Shown piece by piece: positions 56,292 through 61,382 of a stretch of DNA of 64,000 bases. The notes beneath the pieces were generated by a model. It saw nothing but the letters and a program-made list of their open reading frames with translations, searched no databases and had not been told where the DNA came from. The stretch is from NCBI RefSeq assembly GCF_000759855.1, contig NZ_JNAI01000009.1, forward strand, positions 1-64,000. Reading direction: 5' to 3'. The position numbers and the translations under genes are program-made. This DNA comes from Prochlorococcus marinus str. MIT 9107 (lineage in GTDB: Bacteria > Cyanobacteriota > Cyanobacteriia > PCC-6307 > Cyanobiaceae). Every line of letters starts with the position of its first letter. Position 1 is the first letter of the stretch.

Positions 56292-56603
56292 CTAATTATT
56301 TTCTTTCTCTTCTTTTTCTTCCTTGCTTATAGCGAATGAATTTATAAATAACCTGATACCAATAAAAAAAAATGTTATTGAGGCTATTAATTTAAGGACT
56401 ACTTCTGGTAAAAAACTTGAAATAGACCCTCCTGTTAATGCTCCTAGTAAACTTGCAAAGACAAGTGCAGATGAAGAACCTATAAAAACTGCCAATGGCT
56501 TATTTGAAGTTCCGCTAATTGTTAAAGTAGCTAGTTGAGTTTTGTCACCTAATTCAGCTATAAAAACGGTAATAAATGTTGACAGTAATAAACTTAAAAT
56601 CAT
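56292..56603 (-). CDS. GDT1/UPF0016-family transporter half (second)
   Basis: A 103-residue, three-helix protein with the family signature ELGDKTQLATL (about residues 17-27). The family (TMEM165/GDT1; manganese exporter Mnx in Synechocystis) usually has two such motifs in one chain. Here each half is a separate gene. The ATG begins directly after the stop of the first half (TAA then ATG). It is predicted to pair with it as a heterodimeric Mn/Ca exporter. Confidence 0.85.
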   Translation of the reverse strand: MILSLLLSTFITVFIAELGDKTQLATLTISGTSNKPLAVFIGSSSALVFASLLGALTGGSISSFLPEVVLKLIASITFFFIGIRLFINSFAISKEEKEEKENN

Positions 56604-56930
56604 TTATATATAATTTTTGAAGGTATCAAAAGCCAAATATAAACTTACAATTATCATCAAGACACCTGTAAATAGTGCAAATTTACTTGCAGATATTTTT
56701 TTCGATATCCATTTCCCAATTAGTACTCCAACAACACTAGAGCTTATTAAAGCAATTGAACTGCCAAGAAAAACAATTATAGGCTTACCCGATTCGGCAG
56801 AGAGCATTAATGTGGCTATTTGGGTTTTATCTCCAAGTTCAGCAATAAAAATTGTTGTAAATGTTGTTATTAATATAGATAAAAAACTCTTCTCTATGTT
56901 GTTTTCTTTTTTTTCTATATTACTGTTCAT
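56604..56930 (-). CDS. GDT1/UPF0016-family transporter half (first)
   Basis: A 108-residue, three-helix half with motif ELGDKTQIATLMLS (about residues 35-48). It overlaps the YkgJ-type gene by 4 bp (ATGA) and is followed without a gap by the second half. Together they equal the usual two-repeat protein. The role in manganese or calcium export is by family inference. Confidence 0.85.
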   Translation of the reverse strand: MNSNIEKKENNIEKSFLSILITTFTTIFIAELGDKTQIATLMLSAESGKPIIVFLGSSIALISSSVVGVLIGKWISKKISASKFALFTGVLMIIVSLYLAFDTFKNYI

Positions 56931-57449: not shown

Positions 57450-58211
57450 GTGACTTATCTAGAAGGTGTTTATTGGGATTTAGATGGTACTATCGCAAAT
57501 ACTGAATTAGAGGCTCATTTACCTGCTTTTAATAATGCTTTCAATGATCTTGGTATCAATTGGAATTGGGATACTAATAAATATATAGAACTTTTGAAGA
57601 TAAATGGGGGCAAAAATAGGATTGCTTATTACGCTAAATCGAATAATGATGATTTCTCAGCAAATTTAATTCTCAAAATTCATGAAACAAAGCAGTTTCA
57701 TTATTTAGAAATTATAAAAAGAAATTGCGTTAGTTTAAAAACTGGTGTTTTTAGATTAATCAATGAATTACATAGAAAAAAAGTAAGACAATTTATTGTT
57801 ACTTCAAGTTCAAGAAATCAAGTCAATCTTCTTGTTGAATATCTTTTAAATGGTTTCAACCCTTTTGAGTTCATTATTTCAAGTGAAGACGTTGAATTAA
57901 AGAAACCAAATCCATTACCATATTTAAAGGCAATCCAATTAAGTGGTATTAACAAAAACAACTCAATTGTTTTTGAAGACTCCAATCCAGGATTAAAATC
58001 TTCCTTGGCAGCTAACTTGCCTACAATTTTTGTCCCTTCAAATATCCCAATTGTTCTTGAAGAAAATATTAAATTAGATTGTATTTTAGACAGTCTTGGT
58101 GATGAGAATAATGTGGCAAATGTAATTAAAGGCCCTAAACTAAAAAAAACATATGTTGACTATAGCTTTCTAAGTGATTATTTAGTGTCTTTTAGTAATG
58201 CAAAAAACTAA
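57450..58211 (+). CDS. HAD-superfamily phosphatase (CbbY-like)
   Basis: A 253-residue HAD phosphatase from GTG 57450. The motif I nucleophile is WDLDGTIANTE (Asp10, Asp12), with motif II Thr in FIVTSSSRNQV, motif III Lys in LKKPNPLPYL and motif IV FEDSNPGLKS. This pattern fits the CbbY/PGMB branch that clears misformed sugar phosphates such as xylulose 1,5-bisphosphate. It overlaps the DUF565 gene by 14 bp. Confidence 0.87.
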   Translation: MTYLEGVYWDLDGTIANTELEAHLPAFNNAFNDLGINWNWDTNKYIELLKINGGKNRIAYYAKSNNDDFSANLILKIHETKQFHYLEIIKRNCVSLKTGVFRLINELHRKKVRQFIVTSSSRNQVNLLVEYLLNGFNPFEFIISSEDVELKKPNPLPYLKAIQLSGINKNNSIVFEDSNPGLKSSLAANLPTIFVPSNIPIVLEENIKLDCILDSLGDENNVANVIKGPKLKKTYVDYSFLSDYLVSFSNAKN

Positions 58212-58524
58212 TTTTTCAAGAATTACCTACCAGTTAATTAATTTATTTTTTGGTTTTCTAAGTGATACTTGGAGGACAAAATCTATTGGTCTAATTTCTG
58301 TTTTGACAGGTTATTTTTTGTTCGCAAATTTTCTTACCAAATTTATATCTGAAGGTAAAAATGAGTTGATAATGGTTCCAATAATTATTGTTTTTATTGA
58401 AATCATTATAAGAATTAAACCTGCCGCAAGTTCAAAATTTTATTATCTATGGACCGTAATTGATAAATTAAGAATTGGTGCAATTTATGCCGTTATACTT
58501 GAGGCATTTAAACTAGGATCTTAA
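58198..58524 (+). CDS. DUF565/Ycf20-like membrane protein
   Basis: A 108-residue protein with two or three hydrophobic helices and the DUF565 phrases FFGFLSDTWRTKSIGLISVL, then TKFISEGKNELIMVPII and YLWTVIDKLRIGAIYAVILE. Ycf20 is linked in plants to thermal energy dissipation (family knowledge). Translationally coupled to the CbbY-like gene through a 14-bp overlap. Confidence is good for family, low for role. Confidence 0.85.
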   Translation: MQKTNFSRITYQLINLFFGFLSDTWRTKSIGLISVLTGYFLFANFLTKFISEGKNELIMVPIIIVFIEIIIRIKPAASSKFYYLWTVIDKLRIGAIYAVILEAFKLGS

Positions 58525-58527
58525 AAG

Positions 58528-58698
58528 CTATTCTTCTTCTTCTTCTTCAATAGGATAAACAAATCCTTGAGCTTTTCCAGTTAAAACTGATTTACCTAAA
58601 GATATAGCTTTTTGAGCGGCTATTGCTGCTTTCCCTTTCCAGACAGCGTGCCTTTGGTTCCTTTTGCTCTTTGATTTTTTCTTCTTTGGTACAGCCAT
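58528..58698 (-). CDS. rpmF: 50S ribosomal protein L32
   Basis: A 56-residue ribosomal protein. The start [20 protein letters not shown] is diagnostic of L32. It has an acidic tail EEEEEE, a feature of cyanobacterial L32. It lacks the Cys pairs of zinc-binding L32 forms. It is a single gene, converging on the DUF565 gene with a 3 bp gap. Confidence 0.97.
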
Positions 58699-58829: not shown

Positions 58830-60584
58830 GTGTTTAGATCAAAATTCTCATATTCAGATTCTGAATCAAGTTATTCCGATCTTCTAGAAGATATAGAGAC
58901 GGGGAAAATAGAATCAATATTTTTCTACCCTAGGCAGAGAGAAATTGATGTTCTGTATAAAAATGGTGATAAATTTAAAATACCTATTCTTTACAACGAT
59001 CAATTAATCCTTGAAAAGGCTACTGAAAATAAGGTAGATCTCACTATTAACAATAGTAGAAAAGAAGCCTCAGCTGCTAATTCATTTGCTTCAATAAGTC
59101 TTTTACTGATTTTAATATTAGCTGTAGTCTTAATCTTGAGGAGCACATCAAAATTGGCTTCCAGAGCCTTTGGTTTTACCAAAAATCAAGCTAAATTTGT
59201 AACTATTGATGATGTAGAAACGAGATTCGATGATGTAGCTGGTGTACCTGAAGCCGCTGAGGAATTAAAAGAGGTAATAACATTTTTGAAGGAACCAAAG
59301 AAATTAGAAAATCTTGGCGCAAAAGTTCCTAAGGGAGTTCTTCTAATTGGCCCACCAGGAACAGGTAAAACATTATTGGCTAAAGCAATTGCTGGTGAAT
59401 CAGGAGTGCCTTTTATCTCAATATCGGCTTCAGAGTTTGTAGAACTTTTTGTTGGTGTTGGAGCAAGTCGAGTTCGGGATCTATTCTCTAAGGCTAAAGA
59501 AAAATCTCCTTGTATAATTTTCATTGATGAAATTGATTCTATTGGTAGGCAAAGAGGTTCTGGGATCGGAGGTGGAAATGATGAAAGAGAACAAACCCTT
59601 AATCAGCTTCTAACTGAATTAGATGGTTTTGCTGATAATTCAGGGGTTATTGTTTTAGCCGCAACAAATAGACCAGATATTTTGGATGCAGCATTATTAA
59701 GACCAGGTAGATTTGATAGAAAAATTGAAGTAATGCTTCCAGATTTAGATGGAAGAAAAGAAATTCTTTCAGTTCACTCACTTTCCAAACCTATTTCAAG
59801 CGAAGTTGACTTAGGATATTGGGCTTCAAGAACAGTTGGATTTTCGGGAGCAGATCTTGCAAATTTGATGAATGAGAGCGCTATTCACTGTGCAAGAGAT
59901 GAATCTAAATTAATCAGTGACCTTCATGTAGAAAATGCTCTCGATAAAATTACCATTGGCCTGAGAAGTTCATTAATAACTTCTCCAAATATGAAAAAAA
60001 TTATTGCTTATAACGAAGTAGGCAGAGCGATTGTATCTGCTGTGAGAAATGGAATTGAATCAGTTGATAAAATAACTATTTTACCTAGATCTGGATCTAC
60101 AGGAGGATATACAAAAATATGTCCCGACGAAGATGTAATTTCTAGTGGCTTGATTTCAAAAAAATTATTATTTTCAAAAATTGAAATTGCTCTAGCTGGA
60201 AGAGCAGCAGAATCGATTGTTTTTGGTGAAAATGAAATTACACAATGCTCTGTAAGCAATATTTCTTATGCTACAAATATAGTAAGAGAAATGGTTACGA
60301 AATATGGATTTTCAACTATTGGTCCAATTTCAATGGATTCTGATAATAATGAAATGTTTTTAGGAGATGGATTATTTAGAAGAAAGTCCCGCATCGCAGA
60401 TAATACTAGTTCTAAAATTGATAATGAAATCATAAAGCTTTCTAAAATTTCATTAAATAATTCAATAAAAATATTGAAAAAAAATAGAGTTTTACTAGAT
60501 AAATTAGTTGATATCCTTTTAAATTTAGAAACTATAGATAAACAAGTATTTAAATTAACAACTTCTAAATTGTTGAAAGTTTGA
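58830..60584 (+). CDS. FtsH-like AAA protein lacking zinc ligands
   Basis: A 584-residue FtsH homologue from GTG 58830, with TAA two codons upstream. Residues 1-85 form the FtsH exposed-domain type; one helix follows at about 86-104. The AAA domain is complete: Walker A GPPGTGKT (174-181), Walker [10 protein letters not shown] and the SRH region [17 protein letters not shown]. In the protease domain HEVGH is replaced by NEVGR (395-399) and the third ligand Asp by Asn477. It is predicted protease-dead, like chloroplast FtsHi. The usual first N-terminal helix is absent. Confidence 0.88.
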
Positions 60585-60629: not shown

Positions 60630-61382
60630 TTGATAATTAAAAACAACTCGACAAGGTTAATAATTACGCTTTCATTCTTGCTTATTTTTCCATTCGTTCA
60701 GAAGCAATGGTTTAATTTGTATTTATTCAATATTAATAATGTTTCTTTTTATTCAATTCTTTATTATTTAAGCGGCACTATCTGTCCATTTCTAATATCT
60801 TTAAACTCATTTAATAACTATACACACTATAAATTTAATAATAATAAAGACTATAGTAAAAATTTAATTAAAGGTAGAGCTTTATTCTTCTTAGTAGCAA
60901 TAAATTTGATATTTCTATCGTACTTAGTTTCTTATTATTTTTATATAAATTTTGATCTTATAACTAATTTGTTTCTCAAAGGAATTCAAATATCACAACC
61001 TAATATTTTTCAATTGAATCTTTTCATATTTTTAATTTCTATGTTATTAATATTCAAGAAATATAGGATTTTCTTTAAGAAATTAATATTAGTAAATTTT
61101 TGTTTGATTTCTTTTTTTATTTGGTTTATGCAAATTAATAATATTAAAATTGATGATCAGTTTCATATACATAGATATTATGGTTTAGAAAACATTAATT
61201 TAATTAATGTTTTTATTTTACTAGTTATAGAAATAGCTTATTTTATATGGTCTTTTCTATCTTATAAATCTAATTTAAGTGATTGGATGGTTCAACTACC
61301 TCAAAAAGGGGATATGAACCCCATTTTGAATATTTTAATTTTTTATTTATTTTTAATTTTTTACTATTCAGTAATAATGTAA
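60630..61382 (+). CDS. polytopic membrane protein, unknown function
   Basis: A 250-residue protein with about six hydrophobic helices, starting at TTG 60630. It is rich in Ile, Leu, Phe and Asn with few charges in helices, and has a QFHIHRYYGLENINLINVFI segment between helices. It follows the FtsH-like gene by 45 bp on the same strand and may share its transcript. Family not recognised. Confidence 0.65.
   Translation: MIIKNNSTRLIITLSFLLIFPFVQKQWFNLYLFNINNVSFYSILYYLSGTICPFLISLNSFNNYTHYKFNNNKDYSKNLIKGRALFFLVAINLIFLSYLVSYYFYINFDLITNLFLKGIQISQPNIFQLNLFIFLISMLLIFKKYRIFFKKLILVNFCLISFFIWFMQINNIKIDDQFHIHRYYGLENINLINVFILLVIEIAYFIWSFLSYKSNLSDWMVQLPQKGDMNPILNILIFYLFLIFYYSVIM

Follow-up and report, generated by a model that had tools for sequence, protein, structure and literature searches.

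Loss of the zinc site in a conserved FtsH1-type subunit of Prochlorococcus, a predicted pseudoprotease

Introduction

Mixed rings built from two FtsH types, A and B, occur in m-AAA and in the thylakoid FtsH heterohexamers, where neither type is known to lack the HExxH motif in nature. The protease activity of Arabidopsis type-B FtsH is reportedly dispensable, a result ascribed to Zhang in 2010. In Synechocystis, FtsH1 (type B) and FtsH3 (type A) are described as an essential plasma-membrane heterocomplex, and losing one FtsH type lowers the other (PMC9020784, PMC11287208). Another group of FtsH homologues, chloroplast FtsHi1-5, keeps the AAA motif while HExxH is broken, and a non-cutting motor role is known for Ycf2-FtsHi. 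The former zinc motif is given as TEVGV, NEAAM, REAAV and WAAGR in FtsHi1, 2, 4 and 5, respectively, with Arg at this position in FtsHi5 only (PMC11266112).

For Prochlorococcus, one FtsHi has been reported in P. marinus SS120, the single strain named (PMC6460958; repeated in PMC8197885), and the consulted parts of these reports give no clade range, origin or selection. Among the papers listed, titles and abstract openings yielded no further report of an inactive or pseudoprotease FtsH in Prochlorococcus. For the Prochlorococcus FtsH4, work from 2024 gives 'cell viability' as the homology-based function (PMC11262661 Table 1). Here we describe an FtsH homologue from P. marinus str. MIT 9107 that combines intact motor residues with a disrupted zinc site, and we follow this site through its relatives.

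Results and discussion

An FtsH homologue with a disrupted zinc site

The window analysed here is a stretch of 64,000 nucleotides (contig NZ_JNAI01000009.1, positions 1 to 64,000). It contains an open reading frame with a GTG start codon, the stop-to-stop frame being longer by only two codons, and the product matches FtsH_ext, AAA, lid and Peptidase_M41 in that order, all four above the Pfam cut-offs (150 bits for M41). It also scores 643.7 bits with NCBIfam TIGR01241, the FtsH equivalog model, against a cut-off of 600, and because this zinc metalloprotease cut-off is passed, automatic annotation would call the protein an active protease. The signature of an active M41 zinc peptidase, HExxH with a distal Asp, is missing from the sequence, which reads NEVGR and Asn477. 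The features are as follows.

58830..60584, + strand: ftsH homologue, FtsH1-type (published as 'FtsH4' for MED4), product of 584 aa that is predicted to lack protease activity
59082..59138, + strand: single hydrophobic (membrane) segment, residues 85-103, from a hydropathy scan
59349..59372, + strand: Walker A GPPGTGKT, residues 174-181; K180 and T181 in 154/154 rows covering them
59436..59462, + strand: pore loop FVELFVGVG, residues 203-211; V204 replaced by Ile in one row
59511..59540, + strand: Walker B, residues 228-237; D233 and E234 in 154/154 rows covering them
59646..59720, + strand: sensor 1 and second region of homology (SRH) with both arginines, residues 273-297; N280, R291 and R294 in 155/155 rows
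60012..60026, + strand: former zinc motif HExGH, here NEVGR, residues 395-399, from alignment with relatives
60258..60260, + strand: former third zinc ligand, here Asn477; Asp in 79/86 same-genus orthologues

Asn477 aligns with an Asp of FtsH chains from solved structures, which we take to be the third zinc ligand of FtsH. The motif HExxHx74D given for E. coli FtsH agrees with this role of the Asp (PMC11266112). The window genome (G000; 1.70 Mb, 13 contigs) carries three further FtsH genes, all with HExGH and Asp, and its intact FtsH3-type gene lies on contig C10.

The gene belongs to the cyanobacterial FtsH1 type

In an unrooted 60-row tree, in which Synechocystis and plant FtsHi sequences were not among the rows, picocyanobacterial genes of the window type form one group (SH-aLRT 100), and a branch with SH-aLRT 99 parts the FtsH1-type genes, together with seven cyanobacterial rows from other families, from 28 rows of other types. 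By this tree the gene falls into the cyanobacterial FtsH1 type, apart from the FtsH2, FtsH3 and FtsH4 types. The name FtsH1 rests on the published assignment of picocyanobacterial FtsH4 to Synechocystis FtsH1, a link called 'less obvious than the others' (PMC6300248), and on a primer match, as the MED4 'FtsH 4' primers (PMC6300248 Table 1) are exact on the orthologue L028 and have 5 and 2 mismatches on the window gene. The protein thus resembles Synechocystis FtsH1 (Slr1390) of the FtsH1/FtsH3 complex in gene type (tree, PMC6300248) and in its AAA and M41 architecture, but differs in that the Prochlorococcus subunit has lost the zinc site.

Both His ligands are replaced in every same-genus orthologue covering the site

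An orthologue at E <= 1e-190 was found in 195 of 266 same-genus genomes, and 88 of the 195 orthologues were tabulated, the window gene included. We take this same-genus group to be high-light Prochlorococcus, based on the MED4 primer match of L028, on named Prochlorococcus records and on the presumed strain names of genomes G015, G069, G169 and G137, of which G015, the genome of L028, is backed also by the primers. All 87 orthologues covering the site read N-E-x-G-R, which excludes chance, and position 477 is Asp in 79, Asn in six (the window among them) and His in one of 86. The tabulated frame of L235 stops short of the motif and L233 ends before residue 477; the genome of L235, G376, reads NEVGR past a frameshift and is not among the 87. 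Three named records (L064-L066) were kept out of the same-genus count; L065 and L066 have the same lengths as contigs that it already includes.

These data bear out the original prediction that HEVGH is replaced by NEVGR at residues 395-399. It had also claimed that all three zinc ligands are replaced, which holds for the window strain, but Asp477 is usually kept elsewhere in the genus. Similarly, its catalytic Glu396 is kept in all 87 same-genus orthologues that reach this position, but has given way to Gln, Ile or Asn in some relatives with a broken site. Conservation among relatives had been proposed as a sign of a dedicated inactive subunit; the loss of the two His is fixed in the genus as far as read and favours such a subunit.

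The break extends beyond the genus

The sample outside the genus comprised 67 orthologues, 63 from genomes of the family (best-scoring, small-genome and weakest matches) and four from named records (L067-L069 and L084) that presumably belong to this family. The site is intact in 50 of the 67, which read HE[IV]GH and keep the Asp, and broken in the remaining 17, numbers that give no estimate of frequency because the sample was chosen and not random. The broken sites, given as motif/position 477, read NEVGK/E, HEAGR/D, HEIGK/Q (in two lineages), HQIGK/D, NEAGK/N, NEIGR/N, YEIGR/D, QIIGK/D or E, QQVGR/D and RESAR/D, and in 17 of 17 the second His has become Lys or Arg. The orthologue L261 (G088), on which MIT9313 FtsH4 primers match with 3 and 0 mismatches, keeps HEIGH. 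L276, from a genome taken as SS120-like, reads NEAGK with Asn at 477, and the FtsHi reported for SS120 is probably the same orthologue as the window gene. Judged from these sequences, the window-type motif is fixed in the genus as far as read, whereas the disruption of the site predates the genus and is common to it and other lineages.

One genome appears to have gone further, and a second may have done so. In G062, a genome of one contig, the orthologue L354 (2389-4110) reads RNASK, again with Lys at the second His, and its Walker A (GSPGTGKT) and SRH (RAGRFDK, compared with RPGRFDR in the window gene) show what appears to be decay extending to the motor motifs. In G085 (99% complete, 30 contigs) we found only three FtsH genes, of the FtsH2, FtsH3 and FtsH4 types (L356, L426 and L427), all with intact zinc motifs, and no FtsH1-type gene, and a complete loss of this gene is possible. 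The paralogues keep HExGH and Asp in all 20 cases read across seven broken-site genomes; one of these paralogues (L370) sits in a short open frame.

A single loss is the simplest account

The differing motifs had led us to suspect a separate loss in each lineage, but the broken lineages come out as a single clade both in the gene tree and in a tree of RpoB. In a gene tree of 76 rows, from which the zinc-motif columns were excluded, the 24 broken rows form one clade (support 99/97; 98% of 200 bootstrap trees), as do the 16 broken rows of a mixture-model tree (60 rows; SH-aLRT 98). Given possible long-branch attraction of broken rows, a genome tree based on RpoB was built as a second test. For that, 46 genomes were queried, five of which, including one broken-site genome, had no match, and in the resulting tree of 41 genomes the 19 broken-site genomes again form one clade (96/94). 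The broken clade sits among intact genes of small-genome genera in the gene tree (100/99) and adjoins G134, G148, G200 and G084 in the RpoB tree (98/92). The intact lineage placed nearest to the broken ones thus differs between the two trees. A reversal to an intact zinc site was seen in neither, and the simplest account of these sequences would be one loss in the common ancestor of the broken clade with no reversal. Perhaps the second His was replaced by Arg or Lys first, followed by drift of the other ligand positions. A phage origin was considered and rejected, as the best 80 of 112 viral-contig relatives are only 41-50% identical in the best segment; among 225 phage records, 224 are less than 60% identical and one lies at 60-80%.

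Nesting of the broken genes within intact picocyanobacterial FtsH1-type genes speaks for a loss separate from that of plant FtsHi. The likeness to FtsHi that had been proposed for the window protein, in which HExxH is likewise lost with the AAA motif kept, is therefore fair for a possible working mode, but the loss lies inside a cyanobacterial FtsH1-type gene. In addition, every broken row carries Lys or Arg in place of the second His, whereas among the FtsHi proteins listed above only FtsHi5 has a basic residue there.

A proposed role as a non-cutting subunit

Motor residues were surveyed in 155 rows (88 same-genus and 67 outside). No row that covers them departs from the Walker A Lys and Thr, the Walker B Asp and Glu, the sensor Asn or the two arginines of the SRH, and the pore Val is replaced by Ile once. 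At residue level the motor (Walker A/B, sensor 1, arginine fingers) is thus complete, and the AAA part is intact as first described; the pore loop is present too.

On balance, we favour the view that the protein is a conserved pseudoprotease subunit that would serve as ATPase and scaffold in a hexamer with the FtsH3-type subunit, with cutting by FtsH3-type sites only. The FtsH1-type subunit would have lost zinc binding once, in the ancestor of high-light Prochlorococcus and the low-light NATL- and SS120-like lineages, and would have been retained for its ATPase and its structural role. In all likelihood it would still alternate with the intact FtsH3-type subunit in a plasma-membrane hexamer, where it would bind and hydrolyse ATP, draw putative substrates through the pore and hold the M41 ring together, leaving peptide cutting to the FtsH3-type sites. 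Such a ring would resemble the m-AAA and thylakoid FtsH in being mixed from two FtsH types, but would differ in that one type lost HExxH by evolution. The subunit thus probably assists or drives a protease whose other subunits remain active. Its abundance may be low: the MED4 ftsH transcript pool is described as isoforms 1, 2 and 3 (PMC6300248), and with isoform 4 outside this pool the product may be scarce. In a term search, 'ftsH' was absent from the main texts of the expression papers PMC3898218, PMC3430701 and PMC5451487.

The chief rival is that homohexamers, or mixed rings free of active sites, unfold or translocate membrane proteins without any cutting, like Ycf2-FtsHi. The invariant motor residues would suit such a pure motor, as would the relatives that lost Glu396 yet keep the gene, and Ycf2-FtsHi chains are among the best structural matches of the predicted model. 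This single-chain model (mean pLDDT 79) predicts a folded M41 domain, its M41 blocks reaching 73-95 except for the loop 503-518, which is under 50. However, the FtsHi match reflects no more than a common fold, and the crystal structure of an ordinary FtsH, 3kds, which we take to be T. maritima FtsH, scores higher over the AAA-M41 body (Z 38.0, rmsd 5.3, 423 residues). The nearest studied relative, furthermore, is described as a heterohexamer with FtsH3 (PMC9020784, PMC11287208), and we regard a pure motor as unlikely, though worth keeping in mind.

Next comes the view that the gene is a slowly decaying relic heading for loss under genome streamlining, in whose favour the decayed G062 and G085 without the gene weigh most, alongside the variation of motifs between lineages. 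Of the 87 same-genus genomes that are at least 90% complete, 81 have a stop-free orthologue and six, all drafts 90-97% complete, have no match, reflecting a gap or a loss. At least two draft genomes, a lower bound among the matches listed, are interrupted, G235 by an in-frame stop and G376 by the frameshift, with NEVGR readable in both. By contrast, among same-genus genomes with a completeness of 98% or more, all 44 carry an orthologue without stops, as counted from the completeness table. The M41/AAA distance ratio has a median of 2.91 in broken rows compared with 1.99 and 2.21 in intact orthologues, but two sets of active paralogues give about 2.6 and 3.1 (means divided, from few and close sequences), so these ratios are weak evidence that constraint on the protease domain has relaxed.

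Selection on the gene also speaks against a relic. Estimated by NG86 over 253 non-independent pairs from 23 chosen same-genus sequences close to the window's own, dN/dS is 0.039 for AAA, 0.126 for M41 and 0.092 for the N-terminus. The gene is under purifying selection, with every domain far below a dN/dS of 1, although the active paralogues are more strongly constrained in the five pairs compared. In the 87 same-genus orthologues, Arg399 is encoded by AGA (68), CGT (9), CGA (6), CGC (2), CGG (1) and AGG (1), and Asn395 and Glu396 by two codons each. The six synonymous codons make Arg399 look selected, beyond a mere lack of change. Together with the invariant motor residues, this speaks against a relic, which we hold to be unlikely and somewhat less probable than a pure motor. 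The dedicated non-proteolytic subunit of the original prediction, on the other hand, gains support from a loss of His ligands that appears conserved, old and under purifying selection with the motor residues kept.

We see little prospect for a protein that is still a peptidase, through another metal or non-zinc chemistry with Glu396: the retention of Glu396 and, mostly, of Asp477 in the genus would allow it, but both His are gone, a basic residue at 399 should repel metal, and the Glu is replaced by Gln, Ile or Asn in sister lineages. That the window strain has merely acquired a recent mutation of its own, or was sequenced wrongly, could be entertained for Asn477 alone, confined to a minority of 6/86, and for the two His it is refuted by the uniform N-E-x-G-R of the genus, so that we give it practically no weight.

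Finally, an acidic residue at 396 or 477 is present in every broken row (the 17 rows and G062 outside the genus, and through Glu396 all 87 within it). In a speculative extension, which we consider unlikely, the fixed Lys/Arg charge would have replaced zinc, and a salt bridge with the acid at 396/477 would hold the dead M41 ring folded; the ring would then be a machine dominated by motor or scaffold in place of the essential FtsH1/FtsH3 protease, and a motor resembling FtsHi would have arisen separately in a bacterium that lives free. When the rows from outside the genus are sorted into 12 lineages, a grouping of our own, finding no broken row without an acid has a chance of 0.14, which is not significant.

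The single membrane segment is unrelated to zinc loss

The window protein had been noted to carry one hydrophobic segment instead of two, with the suggestion that its topology may differ. The segment is indeed single, but this form is common to intact orthologues: of 65 family orthologues from outside the genus, mostly intact at the zinc site, the hydropathy scan assigned a single segment to 63, and the two exceptions, L292 and L293, have their second segment in untrimmed upstream frames. A tie between the single membrane segment and zinc loss was therefore rejected.

Significance

In the literature surveyed, as far as it was consulted, we have not met elsewhere the clade range, the apparent single origin, the basic replacement of the second ligand or the evidence of selection described here. 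A subunit that keeps its motor residues but not its zinc site is carried by much of Prochlorococcus, a photosynthetic bacterium of great abundance in the ocean. If this subunit cannot cut, the assignment to 'cell viability' needs revising in the broken-site clades, MED4-, NATL- and SS120-like lineages included. The orthologues also form a natural series from an intact subunit (MIT9313-like and others) through a pseudoprotease to further decay, which could serve to test what allows the active site to disappear from one of the two halves of a mixed AAA protease.

Genomic neighbourhood

One neighbouring gene served as a synteny mark of the orthologue and lies outside the system.

58528..58698, - strand: presumably rpmF (ribosomal protein L32), identified from its sequence; divergent neighbour

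Using a motif pattern, the L32 gene was found beside ftsH at 87 of the 88 loci from the genus and at 64 of the 67 from outside it, where a miss at a contig end does not mean absence, and it is divergent from ftsH wherever orientation is listed. The window gene is further flanked by a DUF565 protein (58198-58524, +) and by a membrane protein with no Pfam match (60630-61382, +), and by eye the G062 orthologue is flanked by similar-looking ORFs. Two consecutive half-length ORFs at 56292-56930 (-), which look alike by eye, encode small membrane proteins with ELGDKTQ and possibly represent a split transporter.
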